Shown here: positions 2,060 to 40,732 of the stretch, in pieces
Position numbering within the stretch: the stretch's first letter is position 1
Layout of the letters: every line of letters begins with the position of its first letter
Source: a virus
IMG/VR virus record: IMGVR_UViG_3300015242_000030
Location: 1-40,732 of that record
Length of the DNA: 40,732 bases
Reading direction: 5' to 3' (one strand)
Notes under the pieces: generated by a model
Seen by the model: only the letters and a program-made list of their open reading frames with translations
What the model was told of the DNA's origin: nothing
Databases searched by the model: none
Made by a program: the position numbers and the translations under genes

Positions 2060-5000
2060 TGACTATGAGCAGGCTGCGTTAGGTCAAGGGATTACGTCGA
2101 TTGACGACGATCCTGAGCAGGCTGCTCGTGCGATGAAGCTTAGTCATTATACTGGCGTGCCGAGCCTTGCTATCTATGGAGATATGGAGGGGTTTGAGCG
2201 GCAAGATAGGGAGCAGCTTACCTCTCACTTTCTTCGAAATAATCCAATGCTGCAAGATTACATCAACTCGCATCCTATGGCGGCGAAGGTTTCGAATGAT
2301 GATTGGCATAAGCTTGATGAGGCTTCAGCCGCAACCAATAAGTTGAATGTTCCATCGAAAATGGATGCGCTAAAGCGAGCCACGGGCTTGGCTGGAGCGG
2401 TTAAAGGGTTTAAGGAAGGTTATGGGGAGGAGCCTTTTGGTTCGTCGCTTGAGTCAACGCCAGCCGATCTTGAGTACCAGAAAACTAATCCGATAACCTA
2501 TTCCTTGCTGAACGATCTCAAACATGTAGTTGGCGAGCCGATTGAGCTCATGAGCCGAGTGTTCGGCGGAGCTATGGGTGCCATTGGTGGAATGGCTGAG
2601 GAGACCTATAAGAACCTTGGTCTAGACCCTGGCGACGCTGAACGACTCGGCAGAGATGTTCGAGGAATGGCCGAGCAGCATTTTATGGGCCTAACCGGGA
2701 CCAAGATGCATATACCGGAGGGAGAATCTCCGGCGTTGAGAGCTAAGATTAAGCCTTCGCCAGAGGATTTGACTGCGGCTATAACTGCTGCCAAGCCTTA
2801 TATCGACGCTGGGCTCGAACCACCAGTTGGTATTCACCCTCTAATTGACAAGGCAAAGGTTCAGCAAGCCAAAGTCGATATTAAGAATCTCGATGAAGCG
2901 TTACAAACATCTTCGGCAAGCGCAACACGTGAGAGATCGCCGGAGCTTTATGCAGGATTTATTCGCCAGCACACCGATGCGGAGATTGGGATTTCAGCCG
3001 AGGCAGTACGCAAGCTGTATGGCGATGCTCGGCCAACTGCTGAGGATGGTAAGCTTGGGTGGATACCAGATTTGGAGCAGCAGCTTTCCACTTCCGAGGC
3101 GGTTGGAGGAGATGTTAAGGTTCCGCTTGCGGATTGGCTGGCGAAGGTAGAGCCGGATTTGGCGAAGGAGCTTCATGACGATATCAGGATTCGCAAAGGC
3201 GGACTGACGTTGAATGAGGCGGAGCAGATTGGAGAACATAAGTATGAGGAGATAGAAAAGCCAAAGGAGGGTAAAGAGGCTGTTGAACCTGAGCCAGCTA
3301 CTCCTGTTGAAGCCGTTCGCCAGCAAGCCAAGCTCGATCCGCTTTATGAGGAGGGTGGGAAGTGGTTTAAGCCTGAGACTGAGGAAGGGGAGTGGATTCA
3401 GTACGGTAAGAACACCGAAGCCTTTGTGCCGAAAGAGTTTTCGAAATATGAAGATGCTCTTTCAAAGATTGTAGACGAAGAACTACAAAGGATTGTACCA
3501 AATCAAGTTCAGCCATTGAAGGCTGGCAATATTCGCAATACCAAAGGTGGGATGGCTGGTGGGGTCTATACTCAGTTTAGAAGCAAGCTGCCAGAAATCC
3601 TCTATGCCCTTCGTGAAGACGATCCAATCGGTACGGCTCGGCATGAGGCTATCCATCACCTTCGGGCTTATGGCTTCTTTACGGATGGTGAGTGGGCCAC
3701 TTTAGAAAAGACTGCGAAAGAAGAGAATTGGATTTACAAAAATCGAGGGAATGGAAGCGTTGCAGATCGATATAAGTATTTAAAGGATGAGCCGGAGGCA
3801 TTACTTGAAGAGTCTATTGCTGATGAGTATCGCTATTGGGCTCAAGACCCAGCAGCAGGGCATATCGCCTCTCCAATCTTTGAGAAGCTAAGAAAATTTC
3901 TCAATGCTATCAAGGAGCGGGTGCAGAAGCTTATCACCGCCAACCCTGAAGTTGAGGATATCTTCAACCGAATTCATGTCGGCGAGGTGGGTGCGAGAGA
4001 AGGGACTGGACCTAGAAATGTTGAAGCGTTTCAGCCGAAGTTTGAGGAGTTAGGTGAGCCAGATAAGAAGCTCTTCGACAAAGCCTCAGCCATCGGCATG
4101 ACGACCGACCAATACAAACGATACCTTAAGCTGATCGAGAAGCGCAACGCCGAAGACCAACAAGCTCAGATGAAGAAGGCGACGGAGCTTGAGAGCCGGA
4201 AGCAATCTAAAGAATGGAAAGAGAACGGGGCGAAGGTTCGAGAAGAAGTCGCACCAGATATCCGCAACCGACCCGATATTGCCGCTTCAGACTTCCTCGA
4301 AAAGCACAAGCTTGATGAATCAAAACTCACCGTCGAACAGAAGAAGGCATTGCCAGATGGATCTTATGGCCGTGGTGGTGTTGACCCTGATCTTATTGCT
4401 GGACATTTTGGTTATCTATCCACCGAGGATATGGTGGCCAAACTTGGTCAGCTTAAAGAGTCGATGGGGGAGATGAACAAACCCTCTTACATCCGCAAAG
4501 TAATTGATCAAGAGGTCACTCGGCGGATGGAGCGGGAGTACGGAAAGCTCGATGAGAATATCATTAAGGAAGCGCAGGAGCATGTCCTCTCACAGACCCA
4601 GATGGACCTCCTTCATGAGGAGACTGTGGCGCTGGGGATGCAGGCTGGGTCGGAGATGCCCTTTACTAAAGAAGAGATAAAGAGCTGGGTAGAGGATCAG
4701 TTTAACAAGTCGAAGGTTAGTACTGCGGATGTAGATAGTTATTTGGCTAATGCTGGTAAGGCTGGCAGAGCCGTTGAAGACGCTCTTCTTAAGAATGATC
4801 CAACCGAAGCCTTTCGACAGAGGCAACGGCAGTATTTAGCGGCGATGTTAGCGAAGCAGTCGCAGAAGTTAGAAAAGGAGCGAGATCAGTTCGATAGTAA
4901 AGCTAAGAGGTTTGCCAAAACCGTAGTGCCGAGTGTTGAACAGGAGTATACCGACTTCATCCACGATATCCTTTGGAGGGTTGGCAAGCCTATTCAGCGA

Positions 5001-7361
5001 AGCTTGCAGAATCTCGCCGAAGCGAAGGAAATGAGTGGATATAAGGACTTAGAGAGCTTTGTCGATTCCAAAACTGGTATGATGCATGAGATGCCTGTGG
5101 CAGAGTTTCTCTTCGATCCAAATTATCGAAAGCAAATTGATGAGATGTCGGTAGAAGAGTTTAGAGAAGTTAAGAAGGCAATTGATACGTTAGAACATAA
5201 TGGTAAGGAGGCTCGGCAGGTTGAGGTTAATGGGGCTAAGCAGGATTTAGCTGAAACTATTGATAAGATGGTTGAGCAGCTGGCGACGCTAGGGACGAAG
5301 GAGCATAGAATCGATAAGAAGCCGGGCAAAGCTCTAAACACTATCAGACATTATTGGGCCTCAAGCCTAACTGCCGAGACCATTCTCAATCGAATCGATC
5401 GTGGAGACCCTAGGGGTCTATTCAATCAAGCTGTAGTTCGCCCAATGTATGATGGTGCTTATTATAAGACCCAGCTTGAGCGAAAGTATAGCAATATGCT
5501 CAAGGATATTGCCGACCCAAAAGATTTGGATAAAGTAGTTGAGAATAAGACTTGGAAAGATCCACTGACCGGCGAGTATATGCGGATGAGCCGGAGGAAT
5601 CTATTGGGGATTCTACAGAATGCTGGGAATAGGAGTAATCTTAAAAAGCTCGCTGGTGGTTATGGAATAACTCCAGAAGAAGCTATGAATTGGGTACATA
5701 AGCATGCAACGAAGGAGGATTGGGATCGAGCGCAGAAGATTGGGGATATCTTCAAGTCGTTGGTTGAAGAGGCTGATAAGATGGGGTCCAATATCAGCGG
5801 CGTGCCGATTGAGAAGATTCCAATCGAGCCGGTTCAAAGTGCACATGGGACTTATAGTGGCTGGTATCATCCAATCAAATACGATCCATATAGGCCAGGA
5901 ACAAGTAAGAAGTTGATGGGTCCTAATGCACTTCAACAGGAAGAGTACTTTAGAGCTACTACTCCAAGCGGGTACCGCAAGCAGCGAACTGGATATATCG
6001 CGCCGATCGAGCTCAACCTCGATATCGTCCCTGTACGAATGATGCAGATGATTCAAGATATTGCTATGCGACCGGCGGTGTTAGAGGCATCGAAGATTCT
6101 TTATGATAGCCGATTTCAACGGGCGATGATTAAGCATTATGGAAAGGAGGGGACGGATCAATTAATCCCTTGGTTGAAGGATTCAGCTAATTTCTCTAAC
6201 TTCAACTCGGCCTCGGCTGCTGTGGCCGACTCGACGATTAATCATTTTAAGACTAATTTGGTTGGGACGATGGTTGGATTAAATCCTCATACTATCTCCA
6301 AGCATGGACTTACTGCGTTGATAAATTCGGCTAACCAAGTAGGACCGATCAACTTGCTGAAGGCTTCAGCTAGCGTGTTTGGTCAAAGCAGCTTTGATAC
6401 AGCCAAGCGCAATGTTACCTTTGCAATGGAGAACATCGATGAGCTCCAGCGAAGGAATAGAAATTGGTCAGATACACTTCACGGCCAGCATGAGCAAAGC
6501 TTGGGTAAGTTGGGATTGCGAGAGAAATCTCTTCAAATAGGAACTTCGCCAATTGCCTTTTTCGATTTGATGTCAGCTATCCCCACTGGCTTGGCGCAGT
6601 TTGAGAAATCAATGAAGGAGGGGGTTGATAGAGGGCAGGCTTTGTTCGAAGCTAGTCGAGCAGTGAGGCAGGCGCATGGTTCAAGCATCATCGTCAACCG
6701 CCCGGCGATCATGCGGAGTAATGGTCTAGGGCAGACTATGACAGCTCTTTATGGCTTCTTTAGCCATATGTTACAGAAGCATTATGAGTTGGCGTGGAAG
6801 GCTAAAGAAGCGTACAAGCTTGGGACTGGTGGCGATTTACAAGGAGCAATAAGCGAGATACCAAAGCTTGTATCCCATTTTATTGCTTATGCAGTTATCC
6901 CGGCTGTAATTGAAGAGGCTGTGACGCCTTATACCAATTCTGAGAAGGAGAGTTGGGGGAAGAAGGCGGCGAAGACGATGGTCTTAGGCTTTAGTTCTTC
7001 TCTTATTGGAGTTAGAGACTTTGTTAATGGATTCATTAACGTAAGAGACCCCCAAGCAGGGCTTATCGGTTCATTCTTTAAGTCTATCTCGGATGTTGGG
7101 AAAGACCTCGGTCGAGGTGGGCATATGTCGCCGGATCAGGCTGGGCGAGCGATTAAGAATGCATTCGTTCTAACTGGAGCGTTGACTGGATTGGCCAATG
7201 CTCAAGAGGGTAAATCGGCTGAGTATATCTATCGTTGGATGCATGGACAAGAACATCCAAGAAATTGGATGTGGGCTCAAGATCATATAGTTCCTGGCGG
7301 GCCAGATACGGTGTTAGGGGGGATTACGAGAGGTACGGCTAGAAGGAGGAGAGGCGAATGA
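2046..7361 (+). CDS. Giant polyvalent internal virion protein with zincin-like motif
   Basis: This 1771-aa protein is the largest in the window and sits where podoviruses encode their large ejected protein. I chose the ATG at 2046 because GGGAAGGG lies just upstream; an in-frame ATG at 2019 lacks such a site. Near residue 533 it has HEAIHH followed about 50 residues later by EESIADE, a pattern compatible with a gluzincin-type metallopeptidase (HExxH plus a downstream Glu). The middle is helical and charged. The region around residues 1310-1350 (GYIAPIELNLDIVP, PVRMMQMIQDIAMRP) resembles the repeated domains of large polyvalent phage proteins. It overlaps the previous gene by 14 bases and ends ARRRRGE, where the purine-rich codons form the ribosome-binding site for the lysin gene. 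Peptidase activity is inferred from the motif only. Confidence 0.75.
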   Translation: MPESDDYEQAALGQGITSIDDDPEQAARAMKLSHYTGVPSLAIYGDMEGFERQDREQLTSHFLRNNPMLQDYINSHPMAAKVSNDDWHKLDEASAATNKLNVPSKMDALKRATGLAGAVKGFKEGYGEEPFGSSLESTPADLEYQKTNPITYSLLNDLKHVVGEPIELMSRVFGGAMGAIGGMAEETYKNLGLDPGDAERLGRDVRGMAEQHFMGLTGTKMHIPEGESPALRAKIKPSPEDLTAAITAAKPYIDAGLEPPVGIHPLIDKAKVQQAKVDIKNLDEALQTSSASATRERSPELYAGFIRQHTDAEIGISAEAVRKLYGDARPTAEDGKLGWIPDLEQQLSTSEAVGGDVKVPLADWLAKVEPDLAKELHDDIRIRKGGLTLNEAEQIGEHKYEEIEKPKEGKEAVEPEPATPVEAVRQQAKLDPLYEEGGKWFKPETEEGEWIQYGKNTEAFVPKEFSKYEDALSKIVDEELQRIVPNQVQPLKAGNIRNTKGGMAGGVYTQFRSKLPEILYALREDDPIGTARHEAIHHLRAYGFFTDGEWATLEKTAKEENWIYKNRGNGSVADRYKYLKDEPEALLEESIADEYRYWAQDPAAGHIASPIFEKLRKFLNAIKERVQKLITANPEVEDIFNRIHVGEVGAREGTGPRNVEAFQPKFEELGEPDKKLFDKASAIGMTTDQYKRYLKLIEKRNAEDQQAQMKKATELESRKQSKEWKENGAKVREEVAPDIRNRPDIAASDFLEKHKLDESKLTVEQKKALPDGSYGRGGVDPDLIAGHFGYLSTEDMVAKLGQLKESMGEMNKPSYIRKVIDQEVTRRMEREYGKLDENIIKEAQEHVLSQTQMDLLHEETVALGMQAGSEMPFTKEEIKSWVEDQFNKSKVSTADVDSYLANAGKAGRAVEDALLKNDPTEAFRQRQRQYLAAMLAKQSQKLEKERDQFDSKAKRFAKTVVPSVEQEYTDFIHDILWRVGKPIQRSLQNLAEAKEMSGYKDLESFVDSKTGMMHEMPVAEFLFDPNYRKQIDEMSVEEFREVKKAIDTLEHNGKEARQVEVNGAKQDLAETIDKMVEQLATLGTKEHRIDKKPGKALNTIRHYWASSLTAETILNRIDRGDPRGLFNQAVVRPMYDGAYYKTQLERKYSNMLKDIADPKDLDKVVENKTWKDPLTGEYMRMSRRNLLGILQNAGNRSNLKKLAGGYGITPEEAMNWVHKHATKEDWDRAQKIGDIFKSLVEEADKMGSNISGVPIEKIPIEPVQSAHGTYSGWYHPIKYDPYRPGTSKKLMGPNALQQEEYFRATTPSGYRKQRTGYIAPIELNLDIVPVRMMQMIQDIAMRPAVLEASKILYDSRFQRAMIKHYGKEGTDQLIPWLKDSANFSNFNSASAAVADSTINHFKTNLVGTMVGLNPHTISKHGLTALINSANQVGPINLLKASASVFGQSSFDTAKRNVTFAMENIDELQRRNRNWSDTLHGQHEQSLGKLGLREKSLQIGTSPIAFFDLMSAIPTGLAQFEKSMKEGVDRGQALFEASRAVRQAHGSSIIVNRPAIMRSNGLGQTMTALYGFFSHMLQKHYELAWKAKEAYKLGTGGDLQGAISEIPKLVSHFIAYAVIPAVIEEAVTPYTNSEKESWGKKAAKTMVLGFSSSLIGVRDFVNGFINVRDPQAGLIGSFFKSISDVGKDLGRGGHMSPDQAGRAIKNAFVLTGALTGLANAQEGKSAEYIYRWMHGQEHPRNWMWAQDHIVPGGPDTVLGGITRGTARRRRGE

Positions 7362-7966
7362 GATATGAAACAAAATGGCATGAATACGCAGCGCACTGGA
7401 ATGCAATGGTTATCGGCCCAAGCCATCAGCACGAGCTTGACCATGCTGCATCAACGTTGCTTGCTGAGAAGTCTTCGTTTCAATCGGCTTCGGCAGCTAT
7501 TTGGGATGTACAAAATCAAACAAGGTTTAGTGCCATTCCTTGGTATATGATTGCTATTATTCTTTGGCGAGAGCGCGATCTCAGCGTGCCTTTGCTGGAA
7601 GCATACTTGGGTAATGGGCAGTCTATTCGCCACCGTACTACAATCGAGCCAAGGGGTAGAGGGCCATTTCCAACCTTTAATGCCGGCTGTATCGATGCGG
7701 TGAAGATTGACGGCCTTGATCGCGTGCTCGATTGGCGATTGGAAAAGATACTCTATTACTGCGAAGTTCTGAATGGAGCTGGGTATAACAATCGGGGAGT
7801 TCCTTCGCCATATATCTGGTCTTTTACTAGTCAATATGCTAGAGGAAAGTACGACTATGATGGCCACTACAACTACTCGCTTGTAGACCCTCAACCAGGC
7901 TGTGCTGCGTTGTTGTCAACACTAGCAAAGCTAGATAAAACTATTATTTTTGTGAGAGAGGACTAA
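7358..7966 (+). CDS. Endolysin, lysozyme-family (COG5526-like)
   Basis: The 202-aa protein starts at an ATGA overlap with the preceding stop and has a strong AGGAGG-type site. It resembles a family of phage and bacterial lysozyme-like proteins in which a Trp/Tyr-rich N-terminal helix pair leads to a catalytic Glu. Here that is IPWYMIAIILWRERD with Glu72, followed by a C-terminal NGAGYNNRGVPSPYIWSF segment (139-156) typical of the family. It should cut peptidoglycan glycan strands at the end of infection. There is no signal peptide, so it would need the holin-like protein encoded directly downstream. The family match is from memory of related sequences; the catalytic residue assignment is inferred. 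Confidence 0.75.
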   Translation: MRYETKWHEYAAHWNAMVIGPSHQHELDHAASTLLAEKSSFQSASAAIWDVQNQTRFSAIPWYMIAIILWRERDLSVPLLEAYLGNGQSIRHRTTIEPRGRGPFPTFNAGCIDAVKIDGLDRVLDWRLEKILYYCEVLNGAGYNNRGVPSPYIWSFTSQYARGKYDYDGHYNYSLVDPQPGCAALLSTLAKLDKTIIFVRED

Positions 7967-26064: not shown

Positions 26065-26342
26065 ATCGCCGAGGCTTTATCACAGGATTCGCTTCGTTCC
26101 TCGCTGCCCCGGCGATTGTCCGAGTCTCAAGCTTGATGCCGATCTCAGCACTGAGACTGCCTACCAACCTCACCGCAACTGAGATAGTTAATCGGACCTT
26201 GATTGCGACTGATATAGAGAATGCATGGATAGAGGAGCTATCTCAACGAATGGTAGCCACAATCATCTATGGCAACCAGATGTTTTGTAGCCCGCAACAA
26301 TTCACTGGCTTTCATTCGGGGTTGATAAATGAACCTCGCTGA
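26061..26342 (+). CDS. Small protein with Tat-like signal and capsid-like segment (93 aa)
   Basis: The N-terminus MNRRGFITGFASFLAAPAIV has a twin-arginine motif, a hydrophobic region and Ala-rich end, as in Tat signals. Residues 60-83 (LSQRMVATIIYGNQMF, then SPQQFTG) match the major capsid protein at 121-143 (MSQQVASTLIYGNQAV, then NPERFTG) with about half the positions identical. It overlaps terS by four bases and terL by 14. A packaging-module protein with a capsid fragment is odd; I do not know its function. It may be a relic of capsid gene duplication or a capsid-interacting peptide. Confidence 0.6.
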   Translation: MNRRGFITGFASFLAAPAIVRVSSLMPISALRLPTNLTATEIVNRTLIATDIENAWIEELSQRMVATIIYGNQMFCSPQQFTGFHSGLINEPR

Positions 26343-28420: not shown

Positions 28421-30157
28421 ATGGTTCAGCTGGGGGCCGGCACAACCGATATGACGCCATCGCAGCTGGCCCTCAAGCGCCAATGCGAGGGTCGGCTGTT
28501 GGGCCTTCGCGTCAATCGATATTCCTGGTGGACCCACGCTCGCGAGCTTGCCGACTACATTCTGCCGAGGAGATACAAATGGCTGATAACCCCAAACCAA
28601 CAGAGCCGCGGTTCTCCGATTAACAATCATATTCTGGATTCTACAGGTACATTAGCTGCCCGGAACCTGGCCTCTGGTATTATGTCAGGAATAAGTTCGC
28701 CAACCCGCCCTTGGTTCCGCCTAAAGATCGGCCGGATAGACTCAACCCAAACCTCGCCGATTAGCCTCTGGCTCGCCGAGTGCGAACGCCTAATGATGCT
28801 AATCTTTCAAGAGTCTAACTTCTACACCGCTCTCGCCGTGATGTACTTTGACCTCGTAGTATTCGGCACCGCGGTAGTGCTTATCTACGAAGACTTTGAG
28901 AACGTCATCCATTGCTACAACCCCTGCTTTGGCGAATACTACCTCGACGTCGACGGAAAGTATCGCCCTTGTATCTTCTACCGCGAATTTACAATGACCG
29001 TCTCTCAAGTGGTAGAGCAGTTTGGCAACGACAACTGCTCCCCCAGCGTTCAATCCCTTTACCGGGATGGTGGAGCTTCGCTTACTCGAGAGCTAGTGGT
29101 GGCCCATGCAATCGAACCAAACGAAACCCCCAAGAAGTTTGGAATCCCTGAACACTTCAAGTATAGGGAAGTGTATTGGGAGTGGGGAGGGTCAGCCAGT
29201 CCGCAGGGTGGTTCCAACTACTCTTACGGCTTCCTACGTATTCGAGGTTATGAAGAATCTCCTGCAATTCCAGTCAGGTGGGACCTTGTATCCAACGACG
29301 CCTATGGTCGTTCCCCGGCGATGGACGCCCTACCTGACATTAAGCAGCTTCAGCAAGAAGTTCGGCGCAAAGCCCAAGCGATCGACAAGCACGTCAACCC
29401 ACCAATGGTTGCCGATATCCAACTAAAGAATCAGCCAGCCTCCCTCCTTCCTGGCGGCGTTACCTACGTTTCTGGCATGACTACAGGGAAGGTCGGCTTT
29501 GCCCCCGTCTACACCGTCCAGCCTGAACTCTCTGCCATGACCGAAGACCTTAATGAGGTTCGGGAGCGAATCAAGAAGATATTCTTCAACGACGTCCTTC
29601 TTACCATTTCTCAGTTCGAAACCCGCTCGAATGTTTCCGCCACCGAGATCGACGCGCGTAAAGCCGAATCCCTGATCATGCTCGGCCCTGTCCTCGAACG
29701 TGCTACCGACGAGGGATTGAAGAACTTCGTTGAACGAACCTTCGGCATTATGTCTCGCGTGCACGGGCTATTGTCTACCGCCCCGCAAGAGATCGCCGGC
29801 CAGAACATGACTCTCGAATTTCAATCGATCCTTTCCACTGCACAACGCGCAGCGCAGAGTTCTGGCATCGAGCGGCTCTTCGGCATGATGGGTAACCTGA
29901 TGGGTATCGACCCTGCTGCCGCTGACAACGTCGATATCGACTATGGTCTCGACAAATACTCGGACCTCTTGGGGAATGATCCCAAGCTCATCCGCTCGCC
30001 GGCTGCTCTGGCCGATATCCGCAATCGTCGAGCTCAGCAGCAACAAGCTCAGCAACAGCAGGAAGCTTCAATGGCAGCTGTGCAGGGAGCTAAGGTCTTG
30101 GCTGATACCCCAACCGGTGCTGGCCGCAACGCCCTTCAAGAAATGACAGGTATATAA
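28421..30157 (+). CDS. Portal (head-to-tail connector) protein
   Basis: The 578-aa protein has the N-terminal signature of podovirus head-tail connectors (RYSWWTHARELADYILPRR, then NHILDSTGTLAARNLASG), with GISSPTRPWFRL next, followed by DALPDIKQLQQEVRRKAQAI and FETRSNVSATEIDARKAESL. It forms the dodecameric ring through which DNA passes and to which the tail attaches. The C-terminus is Gln-rich. A second ATG at 28451 (MTPSQLALKRQ) is an alternative start. Confidence 0.92.
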   Translation: MVQLGAGTTDMTPSQLALKRQCEGRLLGLRVNRYSWWTHARELADYILPRRYKWLITPNQQSRGSPINNHILDSTGTLAARNLASGIMSGISSPTRPWFRLKIGRIDSTQTSPISLWLAECERLMMLIFQESNFYTALAVMYFDLVVFGTAVVLIYEDFENVIHCYNPCFGEYYLDVDGKYRPCIFYREFTMTVSQVVEQFGNDNCSPSVQSLYRDGGASLTRELVVAHAIEPNETPKKFGIPEHFKYREVYWEWGGSASPQGGSNYSYGFLRIRGYEESPAIPVRWDLVSNDAYGRSPAMDALPDIKQLQQEVRRKAQAIDKHVNPPMVADIQLKNQPASLLPGGVTYVSGMTTGKVGFAPVYTVQPELSAMTEDLNEVRERIKKIFFNDVLLTISQFETRSNVSATEIDARKAESLIMLGPVLERATDEGLKNFVERTFGIMSRVHGLLSTAPQEIAGQNMTLEFQSILSTAQRAAQSSGIERLFGMMGNLMGIDPAAADNVDIDYGLDKYSDLLGNDPKLIRSPAALADIRNRRAQQQQAQQQQEASMAAVQGAKVLADTPTGAGRNALQEMTGI

Positions 30158-31308: not shown

Positions 31309-31811
31309 TTACACAAGAAAAGTTCAAAGAGCTATTCGATTACGATCCGATTAGTGGCCGGTTTACTAATCGAATAGCTCGTGGCTCTAGAGCTCATGTT
31401 GGAGATAGAGCCGGTACATATCATATTTATGGATACCGACAAATACAAATAAATGGGTATGTTTATAAGGAACACAGACTTGCTTGGTTATATATGTATG
31501 GCGAATTTCCAGAAGAAATTGATCATATCAATGGTATTAGAGATGATAACAGAATAGCCAACTTGCGTTCTGTAACGCGAGGACAGAATAACGCTAATTC
31601 CGAAAGAGAAGTTGGAATTGCTGGCGTTAGAGGAGTTACCTGGTTTGAGCGCGACCAAAAATGGAAAGCACAAATCAGACTTGATGGCAGATGTAAGCAC
31701 CTGGGATACTTCGACACCGTCGAGCAAGCACACTGTGCATATCTCGCCGCTGCGGATTTATATCATGGTGAGCATGCAATTCATAATCGACCGTTTCGAA
31801 GGAGATTCTAA
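31305..31811 (+). CDS. HNH homing endonuclease with AP2 domain
   Basis: The N-terminal part has YKEHRLAWLYMYGEF followed by EIDHINGIRDDNRIANLR, the HNH motif; the C-terminal part GVTWFERDQKWKAQIRLDGR and HLGYFDTVEQAHCAYLAAA is an AP2 DNA-binding domain. It is a free-standing mobile endonuclease gene lying between scaffold and capsid genes. Its codons are more AT-rich than its neighbours. It ends RPFRRRF, and the AAGGAG inside those codons is the ribosome-binding site of the capsid gene. Confidence 0.9.
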   Translation: MITQEKFKELFDYDPISGRFTNRIARGSRAHVGDRAGTYHIYGYRQIQINGYVYKEHRLAWLYMYGEFPEEIDHINGIRDDNRIANLRSVTRGQNNANSEREVGIAGVRGVTWFERDQKWKAQIRLDGRCKHLGYFDTVEQAHCAYLAAADLYHGEHAIHNRPFRRRF

Positions 31812-32855
31812 ATGGCGACTATCGGCGCCGTAGCCCTCAGCTATGCTGATTGGGCCAAGAGAATGGATGACGGCTATAGAGTAGCTGTTATTATCGAGCT
31901 GCTTAGTCAGACGAATGAAGTGTTGGACGACATGCTGGTGATGGAGGGCAACCTTCCAACAGGCCATAAGACGACCGTCCGCACTGGCTTGCCTCAAGCA
32001 ACCTGGCGATTGCTCAATGCAGGTGTGCCGAACGCGAAAAGCACAACGGCTCAGATTGTCGATACCTGCGGCAATCTGGAAACCTACGCAGTCATCGACA
32101 AGGACGTCGCTGACCTCAACGGCAACACCGCCGACTTCCGCCTCTCTGAGGTTAAAGCCTTCTTGGAGGGCATGAGCCAGCAAGTCGCTTCGACCCTGAT
32201 CTACGGCAACCAAGCAGTCAACCCCGAACGCTTCACTGGCTTGGCCCCTCGCTACTCTACCAAGAACACTACCAACTCCCAAACCGCCAACAACGTCCTC
32301 GACGGTGGCGGCACTTCGAATACAAACACCTCAATGTGGATCCATGTCTGGGGCAGCGACACCGCCCACGCCACATTCCCTAAGGGCAAAATCACCGGCC
32401 TCCAACACAGAGATATGGGTGAGTGGCCGGTCCAAGACGCAGCAGGCAACACCTACCAAGCCTACCGTGACCACTTCAAGTGGGAAATCGGCTATGTTCT
32501 TCGTGACTGGCGATATGTCGCTCGCGTCGCCAACATCGACGTGACGCAGCTAACCGGCGTTGCTGCAGCGAACCTGATCAACCTGATCGTCCGCGCGCTC
32601 TACCGACTACCCACCGCTCCTGTCTCGGCTACTACCATCCAAACCTCAGACACCCCTGAAGTCCGGGCCAATATGGGCCGAACCGTGATCTACTGTAATA
32701 GGATCATCCGAACCTATTTGGACCTTCAGGCAATGAATAAGACTAATGTGCTCCTTCGAATCGAAGAATTCGATGGAAAGCCCGTCACCACTTTCCGCGG
32801 CATCCCCGTCCGTACCTGCGATGCCATTCTCTCTAACGAGGCGCAAGTCGTCTAA
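31812..32855 (+). CDS. Major capsid protein, BPP-1-like
   Basis: The 347-aa protein starts directly after the endonuclease stop. LSYADWAKRMDDGYRVAVII, LLSQTNEVLDDMLVMEGNLP, TVRTGLPQATWRLLNAGVP and DKDVADLNGNTADFRLSE are the signature of the BPP-1-type HK97-fold capsid proteins. It builds the icosahedral shell. The segment 121-143 reappears in the 93-aa protein next to terL. Confidence 0.92.
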   Translation: MATIGAVALSYADWAKRMDDGYRVAVIIELLSQTNEVLDDMLVMEGNLPTGHKTTVRTGLPQATWRLLNAGVPNAKSTTAQIVDTCGNLETYAVIDKDVADLNGNTADFRLSEVKAFLEGMSQQVASTLIYGNQAVNPERFTGLAPRYSTKNTTNSQTANNVLDGGGTSNTNTSMWIHVWGSDTAHATFPKGKITGLQHRDMGEWPVQDAAGNTYQAYRDHFKWEIGYVLRDWRYVARVANIDVTQLTGVAAANLINLIVRALYRLPTAPVSATTIQTSDTPEVRANMGRTVIYCNRIIRTYLDLQAMNKTNVLLRIEEFDGKPVTTFRGIPVRTCDAILSNEAQVV

Positions 32856-32866: not shown

Positions 32867-33412
32867 ATGATTCTCGACAACCTCTTGATGTTCGACTCGC
32901 CTCTGGCGCCGAACAACCTTGCTCAAGTAGCAGGGACCTACGTCTCGACGAACGTCATCGATCTCGGCCTAAACTCTGGTATTCCCACCTCTGCGAATGG
33001 TGGTGGTGCTCGAGATATCGGCATCGGCGACGATCCGGCGATGAAGATGTTGGTGCAGGTGACCACCACCTTCACCTCTGGTGGCGCTGGTACCCTTGCC
33101 ATTGCCCTCCAAGGTGCCATCGATAACGGCTCTGGTGCACCCGCCGCCTTTAGCACTTGGTGGACCTCTCCTACCTATGCTTTAGCCACGCTGAACGCCG
33201 GCTCTCGGCTATACGACATGGATATGCCCCGGCCTCCAGACGGCATCGCCATCCCCCGCTTCCTTCGTATGCAGTATGTAATCGGCACTGCTACGATGAC
33301 AGCTGGAGCTATCGTCGCCGGCTTGGTGCTGGATCGAATGGATCAGCCTTACCAATCAACCGACAACTCGATTCTCGGCGGCTATCCTGCCGGCATCGTA
33401 ATTGCAAATTGA
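32867..33412 (+). CDS. Bbp16-like virion structural protein
   Basis: The 181-aa protein (DNLLMFDSPLAPNNLAQ, then STNVIDLGLNSGIPTS and MKMLVQVTTTFTSGGAGTLA) matches the family named after Bordetella phage BPP-1 Bbp16, which follows the capsid gene in that phage. It is probably a capsid decoration or stabilising protein. Start: ATG 32867 after AAAGGAG. Its stop overlaps the next start (TGATG). No signal peptide. Confidence 0.88.
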   Translation: MILDNLLMFDSPLAPNNLAQVAGTYVSTNVIDLGLNSGIPTSANGGGARDIGIGDDPAMKMLVQVTTTFTSGGAGTLAIALQGAIDNGSGAPAAFSTWWTSPTYALATLNAGSRLYDMDMPRPPDGIAIPRFLRMQYVIGTATMTAGAIVAGLVLDRMDQPYQSTDNSILGGYPAGIVIAN

Positions 33413-34050
33413 TGAAACGACTTTACCTTGCTGGGTTAGGGCTTCTTGCGCTTACTGCGGCGGCCCTATCCCAAGTCAACGTAGTCCCTCAAGTCGGACT
33501 AACCACTGCCTACCTCGCCAAGGCAACCTACTCCTCCGCCTTCTTTGGCTTGGTGCCGGTAGTCACCTCGGCCACAGATCAAATCTGCATCTCTGGCTCG
33601 GCTACCAAGACCATCCGGATTCAGCGGCTAACCATCGCTGGAACCACCGCAACGGCTAATCAAAGCGTGCCTTTGAGCTTACTCCGTCGAGTCTCGCTCG
33701 ACACCGGCGGCACTGCTGCTCTAACCACCGCCAATCCTGGCGTCACTACCCAAATCGCCAAGCGAGATGTCTCTACCTCAGCTCCAACCGCTGTACTTGT
33801 GTCTTACACCGCTGCTCCTACTATCGTCGACTCTGCTCCTACCTATATCGATTCGCTGATGATGACTATGTCTTTGGTCGTTGCAACCGGATCACCTGGG
33901 GTAGTCGACTTTAACTACGCTAGAGATATCGAGAACCTCCTCCAGGCCCCGACTCTTGTTGGGGTTAATTCACAAATCTGCGTTAACAACTCCGCAGCTT
34001 TGACGAATGCCTCGCTTTGGAATGGTTCTATCGTTTGGACAGAGGAGTAA
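33412..34050 (+). CDS. Virion-type protein with Sec signal peptide (212 aa)
   Basis: ATG 33412 overlaps the preceding stop (TGATG); no clear ribosome-binding site is present. The N-terminus MKRLYLAGLGLLALTAAALS is a Sec signal. The mature part (ISGSATKTIRIQRLTIAGTT, ending GSIVWTEE) resembles a beta-rich protein found in phage virions, from memory. It is the first of six genes in a row with signal peptides. It may be a decoration or tail-surface protein; why it is exported is unclear. Confidence 0.65.
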   Translation: MKRLYLAGLGLLALTAAALSQVNVVPQVGLTTAYLAKATYSSAFFGLVPVVTSATDQICISGSATKTIRIQRLTIAGTTATANQSVPLSLLRRVSLDTGGTAALTTANPGVTTQIAKRDVSTSAPTAVLVSYTAAPTIVDSAPTYIDSLMMTMSLVVATGSPGVVDFNYARDIENLLQAPTLVGVNSQICVNNSAALTNASLWNGSIVWTEE

Positions 34051-34053
34051 GCC

Positions 34054-34485
34054 ATGAAGAAGTATCTCCTACCTTCGGCATTGATTCTGGCTCTGGGGCT
34101 AGGCCTAGCGCTGGCGCAGAACATCACTAAAGGCATCCAACTCTCGCAGGACCCAACAGGTCCGATCGGGATGGATGCTTCAAACAACGTCTACTTCCCA
34201 AACAAAATCCTCTCTACTCGAACGACCACGCCAGTGCTCTCTAGCTGTGGCACTTCCCCCTCAGTGGTTGGGAATGACACTGTTGGGAAGTTGACCACCG
34301 GCTCGGCTGCTACTACCTGCACTATTACCTTCTCGGCGGCTTACAATGTGGCTCCAGCCTGCATCCTCTCGGCACAAGGGGCCTCGCCGGTGATCCCAAC
34401 CTACACCACCTCAACCACCGCTATCACCGTAACGGTTGATGTGGCTTCAACCGTTTACAACTACATCTGCCTCTCTCAAGGGTGA
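34054..34485 (+). CDS. Secreted beta-rich protein (143 aa)
   Basis: AGAGGAG precedes ATG 34054. The N-terminus MKKYLLPSALILALGLGLAL is a signal peptide (cleavage near ALA-Q). The mature part has FPNKILSTRTTTPVLSSCGT, then VVGNDTVGKLTTGSAATTCT and PACILSAQGASP, a pattern seen in tail-fibre-end or phage-associated surface proteins. It includes several cysteines that could form disulfides outside the cytoplasm. Confidence 0.6.
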   Translation: MKKYLLPSALILALGLGLALAQNITKGIQLSQDPTGPIGMDASNNVYFPNKILSTRTTTPVLSSCGTSPSVVGNDTVGKLTTGSAATTCTITFSAAYNVAPACILSAQGASPVIPTYTTSTTAITVTVDVASTVYNYICLSQG

Positions 34486-34489
34486 TGTC

Positions 34490-35734
34490 ATGTGGAAGCT
34501 TTGGCTGGCGCTTTGCTTCGTGACTCTGGGCTTTGCGCCGGCCCAGGCTCAACCTGTTACCCTTCCACCACCAGCTGGGTGGACTGGGATAATTTGTGTC
34601 TACAACTCTTCTCAACCGACTCTCACCTCCGGTCAGGCTGGCTTTGTTCAATGTGACTCTCATGGCAACCTTGTTACTGGCAGTGGAGCTAGCTCATCTA
34701 CTGGATTTGCGCCACTAGCCTATGCCACGCCGCTATCTGTTACTACGACTTCAGGCTCAACGACTTTGCCGACTGGCACCGTAGTCGTTGTCTACAATAC
34801 CGGTTCCGTCGCGGCCTATTGCACGCTTGGTATCGGCCTGGCTGTGGCCGGGACTTCGAACGATCAAATCGCTCCAGGCGGATTCTGGACCTACTCGCCC
34901 GGCGTCAACAATACGATCGCGTGCATCACGGCAAGCAGCACGACTACGCTGAACATCGCTGGCGGCTCTGGCTCACCAGCGGGCTCAGGCGGAGGGGGTG
35001 GGTCTGGTGGAGGTGGTGGGGCAGTCACGATTGCTGATGGGGCTGATGTCACGCAGGGTGCGCTAGCCGATGCTGCGTGCGCTACAGATACCGGCACTTG
35101 CACGCAACAAGCGTTGATAAAGCGCCTGCTGCAATTGGCTGACTCATGGATACCATGCCAGGCTGCAACTACTCCAACAACAAATTCGCCCGTTTCGTCT
35201 GGATCAAGCGTCCCCGTTCAATGTAATCTGCGCGGTGTCTTGTGGACCAATTCGGCCATTGATCAGACAACGCCGGGCACAAGCAACCTCGTCGCGGCAG
35301 GACAGAACGGGACCTGGACGGTCCAGCCCGGCAATACCGCCAACACCACACCGTGGCTCGTAACGACGACGCCCGGCACATCGGGTGGCACATCGACTAC
35401 AGGGAATATTGCTGCCAATAACACGACGGCAGTGGTGATCAAGGCAAGCGCTGGGCAGCTTTATGGTGTGCAGGTCTATGGAATTGGGACCGCCCCAGCA
35501 TATCTAAAGATTTACAATGCTACAAGTGCTACTTGCGGATCAGGGACGCCGGTGAAACGTTTAATGATTCCAGCAGCATCCACCGCCGCGAATGGTGCTG
35601 GTAGCAATATCTCCTTCGGTAGCGGCGTAGCCTTCGGAACCGGTATCACTTACTGTGTCACGACCGGTATCACTGATGCCGATACATCGGCCCCTGCTGC
35701 GTCTACCTATTTGGTCAATCTGGACTGGAAGTGA
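34490..35734 (+). CDS. Secreted two-domain virion-type protein with Gly linker (414 aa)
   Basis: ATG 34490 follows AAGGGTGA. The signal peptide MWKLWLALCFVTLGFAPAQA precedes a beta-rich domain (LPTGTVVVVYNTGSVAAYCT), then a GSGGGGGSGGGGG linker (about residues 165-180) and a C-terminal domain (KASAGQLYGVQVYGIGTAPA, ending YLVNLDWK) like those in phage virion or tail surface proteins. Six or more cysteines again suit an oxidising location. The frame is open further upstream to 34436, inside the previous gene. Confidence 0.65.
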   Translation: MWKLWLALCFVTLGFAPAQAQPVTLPPPAGWTGIICVYNSSQPTLTSGQAGFVQCDSHGNLVTGSGASSSTGFAPLAYATPLSVTTTSGSTTLPTGTVVVVYNTGSVAAYCTLGIGLAVAGTSNDQIAPGGFWTYSPGVNNTIACITASSTTTLNIAGGSGSPAGSGGGGGSGGGGGAVTIADGADVTQGALADAACATDTGTCTQQALIKRLLQLADSWIPCQAATTPTTNSPVSSGSSVPVQCNLRGVLWTNSAIDQTTPGTSNLVAAGQNGTWTVQPGNTANTTPWLVTTTPGTSGGTSTTGNIAANNTTAVVIKASAGQLYGVQVYGIGTAPAYLKIYNATSATCGSGTPVKRLMIPAASTAANGAGSNISFGSGVAFGTGITYCVTTGITDADTSAPAASTYLVNLDWK

Positions 35735-36837
35735 TGCGAAAAGCCTTTCTTTCATTGATAGCATTTTTGTGGCTGTTGACGCCGGCCTCGGCTCAGCTGA
35801 CTCAGCTTGGAGTTGGTGAAGGTGGGTTAGGTGGTGGCACGTGCGCTCCAGGAACTATTACAGTATTTCTTACTTCAGCCAGCTCTTCCCCCTGGGCTGT
35901 TCCTGGCTGCTGGAACAATGCAAACAATTCAATTGAGGTCATTGCCTCTGGAGGTGGTGCCGGCGGCGCATCGTCAGCAACTCATAGCGCGCCGGGAGGC
36001 GGTGGAGCGTACTCGGCCGTAACCAACCAGACCATCTCAGGCAATGTCGGGTTCTCATGCGGCAATGGCGGTGCTGGGGGTATTGGTGGCGGTAATGGTG
36101 GTGTTATCGGCCCCGATGCTTGGTTTTGTAGCAGCACATCGAACTGCGCTTCGATTGGGGGCTCAGCTGTCATAGTTGGTGCCAAAGGTGGCGCGGGCGG
36201 CGGTTCTGCCTCTGGAGTAATTAGCGGCGCAGCCGGTGGCGCTTCAGCAAGTGGCGTTGGTTCAACCAAAAATTCCGGTGGCAAAGGTGGCGATAACCCA
36301 GGTGTCTCCGCTCCGGGTGGTGGAGGTGGGGCAGGTGCTCCAAGTGGGATAGGTCGGGCTGGTGGCGCTGGTGCAGCAGGCGGTGGAGGTTCGGGTGGAG
36401 GAGGTGGCGGGGCTTCTAGTGCGACAGCAGGTTCTTCACCCAGCGCTGGGACTGGCGGCGCGGGCGGGCTTGGTTCCGATGCTACAGCTGGTGGAACGGG
36501 TGGTGCTGTAAATGCAGCCGGTGTCGGCGGCAACGGGACAACCCCAACTGCTGGCGCTTCAGCAAGCGGTCCTGGCGGCGGCGGCGGAGGCCAAGGCTCG
36601 ACTGGCGGGGGTACTGCTGGAGCAGGTGGGGCAGGTAAGGAATGGGATGCTACACACGGTAGTGGAGGAGGGGGAGGTGGAGGAGGTACAGGAACAGCGC
36701 CCGGGACCAGTACTAATGGAGGCGCTGGCGGTCTTTATGGGGGTGGTGGAGGTGGGGCAGGTACGGAAACCACTTCTGGCTCGACGACTGGCGGCGCGGG
36801 CGTGGGATGTCTGATCGTAGTTAAATATACGAATTGA
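35734..36837 (+). CDS. Secreted glycine-rich protein (367 aa), tail-adhesin-like
   Basis: TGATG overlap marks the start (a GTG at 35731 is also possible). A signal peptide (MRKAFLSLIAFLWLLTPASA) is followed by a region made mainly of Gly with Ala, Ser and Thr, in runs such as GAGGAGAAGGGGSGGGGGG, and the end GCLIVVKYTN. Gly-rich sandwiches of this type occur in phage receptor-binding adhesins (for example the T-even gp38 group). The role as an adhesin is inferred; a secreted or surface-displayed form would be new. Confidence 0.6.
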   Translation: MRKAFLSLIAFLWLLTPASAQLTQLGVGEGGLGGGTCAPGTITVFLTSASSSPWAVPGCWNNANNSIEVIASGGGAGGASSATHSAPGGGGAYSAVTNQTISGNVGFSCGNGGAGGIGGGNGGVIGPDAWFCSSTSNCASIGGSAVIVGAKGGAGGGSASGVISGAAGGASASGVGSTKNSGGKGGDNPGVSAPGGGGGAGAPSGIGRAGGAGAAGGGGSGGGGGGASSATAGSSPSAGTGGAGGLGSDATAGGTGGAVNAAGVGGNGTTPTAGASASGPGGGGGGQGSTGGGTAGAGGAGKEWDATHGSGGGGGGGGTGTAPGTSTNGGAGGLYGGGGGGAGTETTSGSTTGGAGVGCLIVVKYTN

Positions 36838-36838
36838 C

Positions 36839-39800
36839 ATGAAAAAAATAATAACCATCCTTTTCTTGATTATGACGGTTTCCTTCGCTTCGGCGTATTT
36901 TCCGAAAGGATTGGTTATTGCTCCACCTCCGCCAACACCTGATCTGGTCTTCGAGTTTACGACCGGCGCCGTCACGAATTGCACGCTGGCGACATGTCTC
37001 GCCAATACCCGCGCTGATTCAGTTCAATGGTTTGATTCCGCCGGGGCGTGGTTTACCTGCAGCCCCAACACGCTGTGCCTCAACGGCTTCGGTCTGCTCA
37101 ATCAGGCACCGTCGACTAATCTGATCTTATGGTCGCAGGATTTGGATAACGCCTATTGGACCAAAACCAATGTGACGATCACAGCCAATTCAACCATCGC
37201 GCCTGATGGGACGTCGACCGCAGACACGATAACCGACACGGCGACGAATAGTTTTCATGCAATAAGCGAAGGAACGAACGCGACTTTCGTAAACGGCTTT
37301 ACTTATGCATTCTCGAAGTATGTAAAGGCTGGTACGCATAATTATGTGCAGATGACTGTGCCATTTGGGCAATTCTCGAATATTCCTTATGCCAACTATG
37401 ACCTGACAACCTGCAAACCGACGCTCGTAGCTTCGAATTCGCCGGCGGTTATTGCCTCTCCAATTGGAGCTGCTGCCGGAGGGCAACCTGTTGCTGGTGG
37501 GTATTGCTGGCTGTGGTTAATAGCCAAAGCAACATCGAATGCGGCCAACTCCGGCCTCAATCTGGTAATGATCAACGATCCCTTGTCGGTAAGGGCACCA
37601 GTTTACCCCGGTACTGGCGGTAGTGTCATAGCATGGGGACTGCAGGTCGAGACGCTGGCGCCGTCGTCGTACATGGCGACGGCGGGGTCAACGACCTCGC
37701 GGGCTGGCGATCAGATCCAAGCGATCGGCGCTCTCGCTACCGCATTGAATGGTAGCCAGGGTTATGTCGCGACCACACAGGGCCAGATGTATGGCCCGCA
37801 ATTCGTGCCTGGCGGGGTCATTGTCGGCCGAAACAATATCACCGACACCATCTTGCAGCTGACCGGATTACAGACGGTCAGTGCGAAGTCGGCTAATAGC
37901 AATATCGCGCCAGCGACTATCGGCTCTGCTCCTTCGATCGGACAGGGGCCAACCAAATTAGGGGCGTCCTGGGGGCCATCAAAGATATCGACCGTTGCAA
38001 ATGGCGGCACGGTCGGCACGTTTGCCGGTACGTTCAGCGGCTCCGGCACGCCCTATCTGATGAGCCCCGGCCCGGCCGTCGGAGGCACGACCGGATATGC
38101 TTCCGGGTATTTGCAAAAGCTTACTGTCGGAACGACGCAGCCAAGCGATGCAGCCTTGGCCGCGGCCGCTCCGGTGTCCGGCATTCCCCTGGGGGCCGGC
38201 ACAATCGCGGTCACGGTGCCTGCGAATGGTGACGCCGTCACCGGCTTTGAGACGCTGACTGCAACGTCAACCAATGGTCAGTATCTTCAGAACGTTGCGT
38301 TCTTGATCGACGGCTCGCCGATAGCGTCGACGGCAAGCTGGGGCTCATTCCTATTCAACTGGAATAGCGCGTCGGTGCTGGATGGAGCGCACACGATCGT
38401 CGCCACGGGAACCGATCTGCTTGGAAACGCCGGCACGTCGCCGACGATCAACTTCACGACCAACAATGGCACGGCTGGCGGAAATATTCATTATTTTGCG
38501 AATGGTGGCGCGGACACCGGTAACTGCACAAACATTGCGGCACCCTGTGCCACTATCTCATACGCAAACACTTTAGTTTATCAGCTGGCAGACCAGATTC
38601 TCTTTAACGGAGGCGATACGTTCGTCGGCTGCCTCGTCATAAATGGTCTGACCAACTGGCTCTCGACAAACGCAAATCGCGGAACGATCGGCTCGTACGG
38701 TACTGGGGTCGCGACCATCAATCCGAACTGTACCGGCGAGAGCGGAGGCATTCGCGTTAACGCTGCAAACGGCGTGATCGTCCAAGACTTGACGGTCAAT
38801 GCCCTGACTATCCCGACCCCGCGGGGGGCAGTCATTCTGCAGAACAGCACGGGCTCGCAGGTAAGCGGTCTGGTGTTTCAGCGGCTGACCTTGTCAGGTG
38901 CTAGATATTTCCAAAGTACCGCTCCTGCGGGTGGCCAGGGCCAGAATGGCGGCGATTTCTTTTATGAAGGCTTTCCGGGGAATGGTGGCTTCAATGGTCT
39001 TCAGATTCTCAACAGCACGATTTGCGGCTCGTCTGGAAACACCAGTGGGGATGACAGCGCGATTGCTGGCTTTGGGTCGAATATCAATATTCTGAATGTT
39101 ACCATTCAGGGAAACATCGCCTGCAATATCGGTGGCGGCCCGGTGGCAGCCGCGGGTTTCGGGAAAGCCTACCCCCCAATGGGTGACGGTATTCATATCC
39201 AAGCAATGAATACCGTGCTCTCGCAGTTCAATCTTGCCCATGACAATGGGGGCAACATGTCTAGCTGCGGCGGCCCAGCAGGAACGATAACGGCGTCGGC
39301 AAATACAGTCACGGCGCAGTTCAGCGAAAGCTATAATATAACCTATGTTCCGGCTGGCGCTTTGAACTATCCCACGGGATGGTGCGACGGCGAGGGCGGA
39401 GACTTCGACAACGATACGCTCAATGCGCTTGGTCAATATTTTTACAGCCACGATAATGCCGGGCCGAGCTTTCTTCTGTTCATGAACAATACCGGCTGCT
39501 GCTCCGGTTGGAACAATAATACCTGGCGCTACAGCATCGGCGAGAACGACGACCGTACCGGCTCGACGGGTCTTGCGCAGCTGACCTTTCAACCGCTGCA
39601 GAGCGGCCATACTGGCAATATGTACAACATGACGGAGTGGAATAACCTTGTTTTTAACGGCAGCGCTTTTGGAAATACCAATGTTTGTGCGCCTGGGTTT
39701 GCTGTCAATACTGCGAGTGCCCTTAGCGGAGTTCTCAAAAACAGCATCTTCTCGCTGGGGGCCTGCACGTCTGGCGGGGGTGGCTGGGAGCCCGCGAATA

Positions 39801-40216
39801 TGCGCGGTGTCGCGACGCCAACTGGGCTCGTGATTAGTAACAACATCTATCACAACAGGGCCGGGGCTGCTGGCGGCGGGTCATGGTGGTTTGGTGCAAC
39901 GCTTTATACTAGCCTTGCGGCATGGCAGGGGGCGGTGACCGGCGGCGATCCGGGTTCGTCAACTTCTAACCCGCTAATCTCTGGCACGCCACCATTCGGT
40001 GTCTGCACATGGACGCCAAGCAGCGGCAGCGGCCCGCAGCCATGTCCTGGCGGGACTGGAACGCCAACTTATGGCGTGAGCGCGGGCTCGCCAGCTATCA
40101 GCGGCGGCACTGCAATCGGCGCTGTTCCGACAACACCAACGAGGGATTACTATGGTAATGCGGTTCCTGGGACCGGTCCTTGCACTAACATTGGCGCTTA
40201 CGGTGTCTGCCCATAG
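36839..40216 (+). CDS. Tail spike/fibre-like protein with Sec signal, Ig-like and beta-helix regions (1125 aa)
   Basis: MKKIITILFLIMTVSFASA is a signal peptide. Residues about 91-290 (APSTNLILWSQDLDNAYWTK to SRAGDQI) resemble carbohydrate-binding modules of phage tail proteins. Residues about 460-541 are an Ig-like domain (VPANGDAVTGFETLTATSTN). From about 545 (HYFANGGADTGNCTN, then PCATISYAN) a right-handed beta-helix begins, as in depolymerase spikes. No ribosome-binding site is seen before ATG 36839, which lies one base after the previous stop (TGACATG), so translation may be coupled. Base composition is richer in GC than the left part of the window, which suggests exchange. It probably binds or cuts surface polysaccharide. 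Confidence 0.75.
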   Translation: MKKIITILFLIMTVSFASAYFPKGLVIAPPPPTPDLVFEFTTGAVTNCTLATCLANTRADSVQWFDSAGAWFTCSPNTLCLNGFGLLNQAPSTNLILWSQDLDNAYWTKTNVTITANSTIAPDGTSTADTITDTATNSFHAISEGTNATFVNGFTYAFSKYVKAGTHNYVQMTVPFGQFSNIPYANYDLTTCKPTLVASNSPAVIASPIGAAAGGQPVAGGYCWLWLIAKATSNAANSGLNLVMINDPLSVRAPVYPGTGGSVIAWGLQVETLAPSSYMATAGSTTSRAGDQIQAIGALATALNGSQGYVATTQGQMYGPQFVPGGVIVGRNNITDTILQLTGLQTVSAKSANSNIAPATIGSAPSIGQGPTKLGASWGPSKISTVANGGTVGTFAGTFSGSGTPYLMSPGPAVGGTTGYASGYLQKLTVGTTQPSDAALAAAAPVSGIPLGAGTIAVTVPANGDAVTGFETLTATSTNGQYLQNVAFLIDGSPIASTASWGSFLFNWNSASVLDGAHTIVATGTDLLGNAGTSPTINFTTNNGTAGGNIHYFANGGADTGNCTNIAAPCATISYANTLVYQLADQILFNGGDTFVGCLVINGLTNWLSTNANRGTIGSYGTGVATINPNCTGESGGIRVNAANGVIVQDLTVNALTIPTPRGAVILQNSTGSQVSGLVFQRLTLSGARYFQSTAPAGGQGQNGGDFFYEGFPGNGGFNGLQILNSTICGSSGNTSGDDSAIAGFGSNINILNVTIQGNIACNIGGGPVAAAGFGKAYPPMGDGIHIQAMNTVLSQFNLAHDNGGNMSSCGGPAGTITASANTVTAQFSESYNITYVPAGALNYPTGWCDGEGGDFDNDTLNALGQYFYSHDNAGPSFLLFMNNTGCCSGWNNNTWRYSIGENDDRTGSTGLAQLTFQPLQSGHTGNMYNMTEWNNLVFNGSAFGNTNVCAPGFAVNTASALSGVLKNSIFSLGACTSGGGGWEPANMRGVATPTGLVISNNIYHNRAGAAGGGSWWFGATLYTSLAAWQGAVTGGDPGSSTSNPLISGTPPFGVCTWTPSSGSGPQPCPGGTGTPTYGVSAGSPAISGGTAIGAVPTTPTRDYYGNAVPGTGPCTNIGAYGVCP

Positions 40217-40732
40217 CGAAACGCCGTTTCAGTTCACGCAAGAATGGCAAGCCGAGCAGCTGTCGTTTGCTATTCGCCGGGTGCTAAGCGAGCCAGAGAA
40301 GAAGCAGCAATACGAGCGGCCGTCACAGCGACTCGGCCCGCAGTTTCATTTCATCTGGGATGAGGAACAGCTGTTTACGGCAGAGCAAGCTCTTACCAAC
40401 CCCAAGGCAATCCCGCCCGACGACAAGTGGCTGGCCTCACACCCTGAAGCCTGGGAGCGGTTCGAGAAGATCAAGGACAAGCTGCACAATAGCCCGACGA
40501 TGACATGGCCAATGGGCACTCGCCGACACATCACCTTTACCCTTGGCCAGACCATCATGATGGGGATGGCGCTCACTCGCTATCACTGCCGGCAGACGCA
40601 TGGTCCAGGGTTCGTGCGTTGGATGGATGATCAAGGGCAGGCGCAGCAGCTGCAGCAAACGGAATACTGGGGCGAGGATGATGGATACGACGAGAACGAG
40701 AACCTGAACAAGTTCTCGCCTGAGATGTGCGC
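40152..40732 (+). CDS. Secreted protein, 3' end outside window
   Basis: The frame begins inside the end of the fibre gene (65 bases overlap) at ATG 40152 or 40158 and remains open to the window edge (193 codons). MRFLGPVLALTLALTVSA is a signal peptide, followed by a soluble, charged part (FTQEWQAEQLSFAIRRVLSE, then FHFIWDEEQLFTAEQAL). No family is recognised. It is the sixth consecutive gene with a signal. Confidence 0.65.
   Translation, partial: MVMRFLGPVLALTLALTVSAHSETPFQFTQEWQAEQLSFAIRRVLSEPEKKQQYERPSQRLGPQFHFIWDEEQLFTAEQALTNPKAIPPDDKWLASHPEAWERFEKIKDKLHNSPTMTWPMGTRRHITFTLGQTIMMGMALTRYHCRQTHGPGFVRWMDDQGQAQQLQQTEYWGEDDGYDENENLNKFSPEMC

Follow-up and report, generated by a model that had tools for sequence, protein, structure and literature searches.

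Signal-peptide-bearing, fibre-like late genes form a conserved and probably exported cassette in a soil podovirus lineage

If tailed phages assemble in the cytoplasm, as the textbook view holds, why should a row of late genes in one of them begin with signals for export? The question is raised by an IMG/VR virus contig (IMGVR_UViG_3300015242_000030) of 40,732 bases, analysed at full length and called the window here, in which the first-pass annotation had singled out six consecutive late genes with predicted Sec signal peptides (SPs). No tailed phage is known to make its host-recognition parts outside the cytoplasm. The six genes are listed below, with a slash marking the predicted cut and lengths in amino acids (aa).

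33412..34050, + strand: SP protein 1 (family c12); SP 33412-33471 (ALS/Q); mature part 192 aa, 2 conserved Cys; predicted beta jelly-roll.
34054..34485, + strand: SP protein 2 (family c15); SP 34054-34116 (ALA/Q); mature part 122 aa, 4 Cys; H-type-lectin-like.
34490..35734, + strand: SP protein 3; SP 34490-34549 (AQA/Q); mature part 394 aa, 10 Cys.
35734..36837, + strand: SP protein 4 (family c95); SP 35734-35793 (ASA/Q); glycine-rich mature part 347 aa, 6 Cys.
36839..40216, + strand: SP protein 5; SP 36839-36895 (ASA/Y); mature part 1106 aa, 22 Cys.
40158..40732, + strand: SP protein 6, cut by the contig end; SP 40158-40211 (VSA/H); 2 Cys in the truncated mature part.

All six N-termini lie where they had been reported, and all pass our SP test, a home-made, rule-based one that asks for a basic n-region, an uncharged hydrophobic core and small residues at -3 and -1. 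In a calibration on annotated starts from 50 kb of the E. coli K-12 genome, it recovered 11 of the 13 exported proteins and made no false call among 31 cytosolic or inner-membrane proteins. The A-x-A-type ends claimed earlier hold as small residues at -3 and -1, the cut in the 33412 product being placed most likely after S20 (ALS/Q). The signals are also a property of the relatives, about 80 soil contigs (80 have capsids at least 87% identical to that of the window) in which genes were counted upstream and downstream of the capsid gene. SPs are borne by 175 of 504 late-strand genes downstream of the capsid gene compared with 14 of 354 upstream (Fisher P 4e-31; some of these 14 are genuine) and 5 of 154 on the opposite strand. 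Given the upstream rate, six SPs in a row would arise by chance with a probability below about 1e-8, and a chance origin is excluded. Four small families dominate the SP genes of the relatives, namely c12 (33412; 27/28 with SP), c15 (34054; 25/27), c6 (59/62) and c10 (48/50). SP families overall are 89-99% SP-bearing versus 0-1% for head proteins (capsid 0/97, scaffold/protease 0/95, portal 1/84). The sole c12 exception is truncated, and several of the other apparent exceptions are either incomplete or carry a clear signal overlooked by the strict test. Distant prophages of Acetobacteraceae and Gastranaerophilales show no such bias (15/191 versus 11/168). It could be objected that a home-made test was misled by hydrophobic, alanine-rich N-termini, an explanation that we consider scarcely credible in view of the 0/31 in E. 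coli, the 0/97 capsids and the independent Cys and motif evidence given below. Chance and artefact were both rejected by calibration and conservation.

The SP cassette is therefore a trait of the lineage, conserved in its front genes and variable towards the rear. SP-bearing relatives of SP protein 3 with an IICVYNSS...VQCDSHGNL motif occur in contigs L083, L056 and L285, and L049 holds one of SP protein 4. The weakest member is the 40158 gene, which overlaps the 36839 gene by 59 nt, is not fibre-like and has no relatives found in IMG/VR; its standing as a sixth gene is doubtful. What survives of the "six-gene secreted cassette" is thus a conserved exported cassette, neither specific to this phage nor limited to six genes. 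In two relatives (L004 and L006), tandem extra SP genes (129 + 541 aa and 477 + 652 aa, respectively) lie 5' of the terminase gene; the second of each pair has a c10-type domain, which gives the late operon a further site for exported, fibre-like proteins.

Are these signals cleaved, and do the proteins leave the cytoplasm? With n-, h- and c-regions and an A-x-A end that are kept in homologues, the proteins are predicted substrates of Sec and signal peptidase I. Within c12, the signal sequence varies and the Gln at +1 is invariant, the pattern expected of a cleavage site. Gln occupies +1 in 156 of 250 late SP proteins; Cys at this position, the lipobox mark of phage lipoproteins, occurs in 1 of 250. 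As a special signature of the cassette, the +1 Gln was weakened by an alphaproteobacterial genome sample, in which 8 of 20 predicted signals also have it. Just a few cassette proteins carry Tat-like rather than Sec-like starts, which would mean export by a second route (L131:5510-6376, RRKFLTGAAATLF; L160:4262-5695, RRGFLLATVSALA; L059:10430-12634, RRSFIAALLSSLS).

The idea that Cys-rich mature parts would suit an oxidising compartment was well borne out. The mature Cys counts in the window (2, 4, 10, 6, 22 and 2) are all even, and a 1780-residue cytosolic open reading frame (ORF) of the same phage has no Cys at all. Across the relatives, mature SP proteins contain 1.80 Cys per 100 aa, cytosolic fibres and adaptors 0.32. 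The count is even in 204 and odd in 22 of the 226 Cys-bearing mature SP proteins, compared with 191 even and 198 odd among other late proteins (Fisher P 2e-27); the P-values for Cys overstate independence, the sequences being related by descent, though the families are many and unrelated. Judged from sequence, the cassette proteins are very probably exported. The hydrophobic N-termini could instead stay uncut and serve as membrane anchors or virion-docking plugs in a membrane-associated assembly; several phages do assemble at membranes, and a few cassette members lack charge in the n-region. Because A-x-A/Q is conserved and the Cys counts are even, we favour cleavage and periplasmic folding, and the near absence of a lipobox Cys likewise speaks against anchoring. 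Since the conserved cut site and the Cys parity fit periplasmic release, assembly at the membrane, which the first-pass annotation had also entertained, appears unlikely.

What are the exported proteins for? The mature parts had been described as virion- or tail-like. They are fibre- or lectin-like, and the virion label rests mainly on relatives, as neither PHROG nor Pfam has a matching family for five of the six. The 36839 product matches phrog_5939 "tail protein" (E 5.6e-12), with a tail-protein-like domain at residues 84-429 and an Ig-like Big_7 domain (PF17957, above cut-off) at residues 455-522; its residues 53-293 match tail proteins from phage isolates, and its C-terminal part is probably a beta-helix. 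The AlphaFold2 (AF2) model of the 34054 product (pLDDT 77.9) weakly resembles H-type lectins and fibre tips, the top Protein Data Bank (PDB) folds being Helix agglutinins (probability 0.97), R2 pyocin fibre (0.92) and AP22 fibre gp53 (0.90). The 33412 product is modelled as a beta jelly-roll (AF2 pLDDT 77.5) with weak PDB matches to jelly-roll capsid proteins and significant BFVD matches to small unnamed phage proteins (E 2e-11). Sequence searches of Pfam and the PDB with c15 and with c6 or c12 gave no matches. Relatives carry BNR or lyase-like domains, some of low significance.

A fibre motif in the relatives allows fibres with and without an SP to be compared. APTxxxGDNxxxIATTAFV is widespread in phage fibres, and SP fibres of this lineage read TCPTRPxGDSSNACASTAFV, with Cys at two set positions in 19/19 SP-bearing versus 0/7 non-SP fibres in the clade. 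A wider scan for the Cys motif retrieved 55 untruncated fibres, all with an SP, of which 51 passed the strict test and 4 were recognised by eye; fibres of other phages with the canonical motif have an SP or the Cys in 0 of 50. For a third motif, QCDxxGxL, and for a C-terminal RRVR motif, the non-SP cases were too few for comparison. Fibre-type motifs or domains were thus found in the 36839 product (phrog_5939), in relatives (TTAFV) and, as a weak lectin or fibre-tip fold, in the 34054 product.

How could such proteins reach a virion? By PHROG and Pfam, no N-terminal virion-anchoring domain in the same chain was found in the SP proteins of the window. In some relatives, a DLDQSG...GPSLGW domain forms the N-terminus of non-SP fibres; elsewhere it is a stand-alone non-SP gene of about 140-175 aa. 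The stand-alone gene is followed, usually with overlap, by an SP fibre in 20 of 21 cases; in the exception (L005), a cytosolic fibre that carries its own anchor comes next. Where the domain is fused, the following gene lacks an SP in 8/8. A second small non-exported protein, c27, precedes an SP fibre in 21 of 24 cases. It is mainly this side-by-side pairing that makes us think that the exported piece and the cytosolic piece meet again on the virion.

The gene layout bears on the same point. The window is a podovirus related to BPP-1 and epsilon15: a Head-tail_con portal, GP7 capsid and Bbp16 cement follow in order. Identity of the capsid to its closest isolates does not exceed 55%.

28421..30157, + strand: portal/head-tail connector (PF12236, E 5e-134; phrog_332).
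30592, among the late genes: protease/scaffold.
31812..32855, + strand: major capsid protein (GP7 family; PF20911, E 5e-133), without SP.
32867..33412, + strand: Bbp16-type cement protein (PF21190 Bbp16, E 2.6e-14; phrog_427), without SP.
2019..7966, + strand: empty fibre slot, where a 1780-aa ejection-type ORF (2019-7361) overlaps a presumed endolysin ORF (7358-7966).

The cement stop overlaps the start of the first SP gene (TGATG), and the spacings from cement through the six SP genes are -1, 3, 4, -1, 1 and -59 nt, tightly packed inside the late operon. BPP-1, BcepC6B and 66FD have their fibre or spike genes between the ejection-protein and lysis genes. In the window this gap is closed, and near-complete relatives likewise have no fibre there; the head lineage holds and the fibre layout differs. 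The 7358-7966 ORF, which has no family match, is presumed to be the endolysin from its sequence and position. Because the usual slot is empty, the SP proteins are the only receptor-binding candidates found in the window sequence at hand. Among 35 complete capsid-to-tail intervals in relatives, 24 hold a large SP protein without a cytosolic fibre, 5 a cytosolic fibre without a large SP protein and 1 both; the strict test finds neither in the remaining 5, although SP fibres are seen by eye in at least L006 and L155. By these counts, SP and cytosolic fibres exclude each other only in part.

We lean towards reading the cassette as receptor-binding fibres with lectin-like tips that are exported, disulfide-bonded in the periplasm and joined to virions at lysis. 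The tightly packed operon would, from its sequence, be transcribed late. Precursors would very probably pass through Sec and be cut by signal peptidase I at A-x-A/Q, as their sequences predict, and on strong evolutionary evidence the mature proteins would in all likelihood fold and form disulfides in the periplasm. Heads and short tails would assemble in the cytoplasm with non-exported adaptors (DLDQSG or c27, as in relatives); the lysis genes would then open the cell, whereupon virions would encounter the fibres from the periplasm and the adaptors would link the two. These last two steps together seem reasonably likely. Of the earlier proposal that the proteins are exported and joined to virions outside, the export is supported and the joining is favoured, with moderate confidence. 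It is slightly better than an even call that a widespread soil tailed-phage lineage builds its virion in two compartments, with fibres joined at lysis via small cytosolic adaptors. Likely benefits would be disulfide-stabilised fibres suited to soil and a fast exchange of fibre modules.

Several observations weigh against this reading. Exported fibres would dilute after lysis, yet must find virions. The lectin-fold E-values of the 34054 product are weak (0.05-0.3). In L117/L118 the SP fibre lacks the Cys pair, and L125 has a fibre that lacks both SP and Cys pair. L078, L030, G003 and G004 combine complete cytosolic fibres with small SP proteins, so SP proteins are not always the sole receptor-binding candidates. 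Finally, the stretch expected to hold the adaptor and the tail-adjacent fibre lies beyond the end of the window and may contain a cytosolic fibre. The proteins might be exported and never join virions. As free lectins or depolymerases, they would mask or remove receptors on cell debris and on cells nearby, and so keep progeny from being wasted on debris or protect the lysing cell from superinfection. This alternative, possible though clearly on the less probable side, draws on the same export evidence, on the lectin-like and lyase-like folds and on two small, conserved SP proteins that are kept even where a phage has complete cytosolic fibres; a late, exported receptor blocker is already known in T5 (Llp). 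It leaves unexplained why an SP fibre directly follows the non-exported N-terminus of a cytosolic fibre (the 20/21 above), why the canonical slot is empty and why most complete intervals hold no other fibre.

Does any known phage do likewise? BPP-1 and BcepC6B share with the window the order of portal, protease/scaffold, capsid, Bbp16 cement and tail (capsid 48% identical), but have one small gene between cement and tail protein and no SP cassette there. Close parallels are BcepC6B gp19, annotated as a tail fibre (start MKKLIAILLAVPALALG), and gp35 of Xanthomonas phage PBR31, annotated as a structural protein (start MKKLIALFSLFCTSAFG). Like the cassette proteins, both have an SP and cysteines. 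Each gene lies directly 3' of one for a cytosolic fibre or spike, and the two products share a C-terminal domain with fibres of Klebsiella and Pectobacterium phages; unlike the cassette, each stands alone, in the canonical place for fibre genes and next to a complete cytosolic fibre. In BcepC6B, gp19 alone is an SP-bearing fibre. The portion of the PBR31 text that was searched names a signal peptide solely for the esterase gp40. Canonical podoviral tail fibres (phrog_1640 type) occupy the same locus and share motifs in relatives, but have no SP, few Cys and an anchor domain in the same polypeptide.

Other exported phage products are of a different kind. T5 Llp, spanins, Lom and Bor are exported, Llp and spanins being made late; these are single small lipoproteins or outer-membrane proteins, not fibres, whereas the cassette has no lipobox. 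The filamentous-phage virion proteins pIII and pVIII have cleaved Sec signals, but belong to a membrane-extruded particle and are unrelated, the window being a tailed phage with a cytoplasmic head. A search of open-access papers found no report of exported tail fibres in tailed phages. Receptor-binding fibres are a known kind; their export would be a new variant, and two-compartment assembly, if shown, a new principle. The host range of a large uncultured soil lineage would then be set by proteins made outside the cytoplasm, exported fibres would perhaps be shared between virions released nearby, and the difficulty of finding fibres in such genomes would be explained, since most of these proteins have no PHROG or Pfam match. 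The combination of an SP with an even Cys count in late genes would serve as a simple search rule, the exported fibres would be a source of disulfide-stabilised binding proteins, and BcepC6B gp19 and PBR31 gp35 are directly testable cases in isolates.

A seventh SP protein, absent from the earlier list, lies directly 3' of the lysis genes.

8438-9112, + strand: beta-barrel outer-membrane protein, 224 aa, SP MRKLYLALLASTLATPAFA/ADLPVK.

Its presence lends some colour to a further account, in which the cassette would be a lysogenic-conversion one whose adhesins are displayed on the host and have no virion role. The cassette genes sit within the structural operon (gaps -59 to 4 nt) rather than in the separate transcription unit of a lysogenic-conversion moron, carry fibre motifs and replace fibre genes, and the window proteins that were scanned include no recognisable integrase; we hold this account to be very improbable. 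The 8438-9112 protein has weak matches over most of its length in Alphaproteobacteria and partial ones in Terriglobia, a possible host hint, and a similar SP protein (MKGLLALSLSVALGSAAFAADL) stands at the same place in G010. A c12 profile search gave matches in 5 of 299 Terriglobia genomes, once in a 382-kb contig; a c6 profile search gave none in 385 Alphaproteobacteria. That 382-kb Terriglobia contig (G410 contig 38) contains, at about 183.7-186.7 kb, a prophage of a different type (L402) with consecutive genes that have signal-like starts downstream of the tail genes, one of them matching the c12 profile. In soil Acidobacteriota, the SP trait may thus have passed from one type of phage to another.

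Two further ORFs of the window lie near its head and terminase genes. An HNH-endonuclease-like ORF (31305-31811, + strand) stands between the protease and capsid genes and is probably a mobile homing endonuclease, since its relatives (cluster c23) occupy other capsid-near places in other contigs. Immediately 5' of the terminase gene, a 93-aa ORF (26061-26342, + strand) with a Tat-like start (MNRRGFITGFASFLAAPA) includes a 30-residue capsid-like stretch (47% identity, E 5.5e-4; PF20911, E 0.0028).

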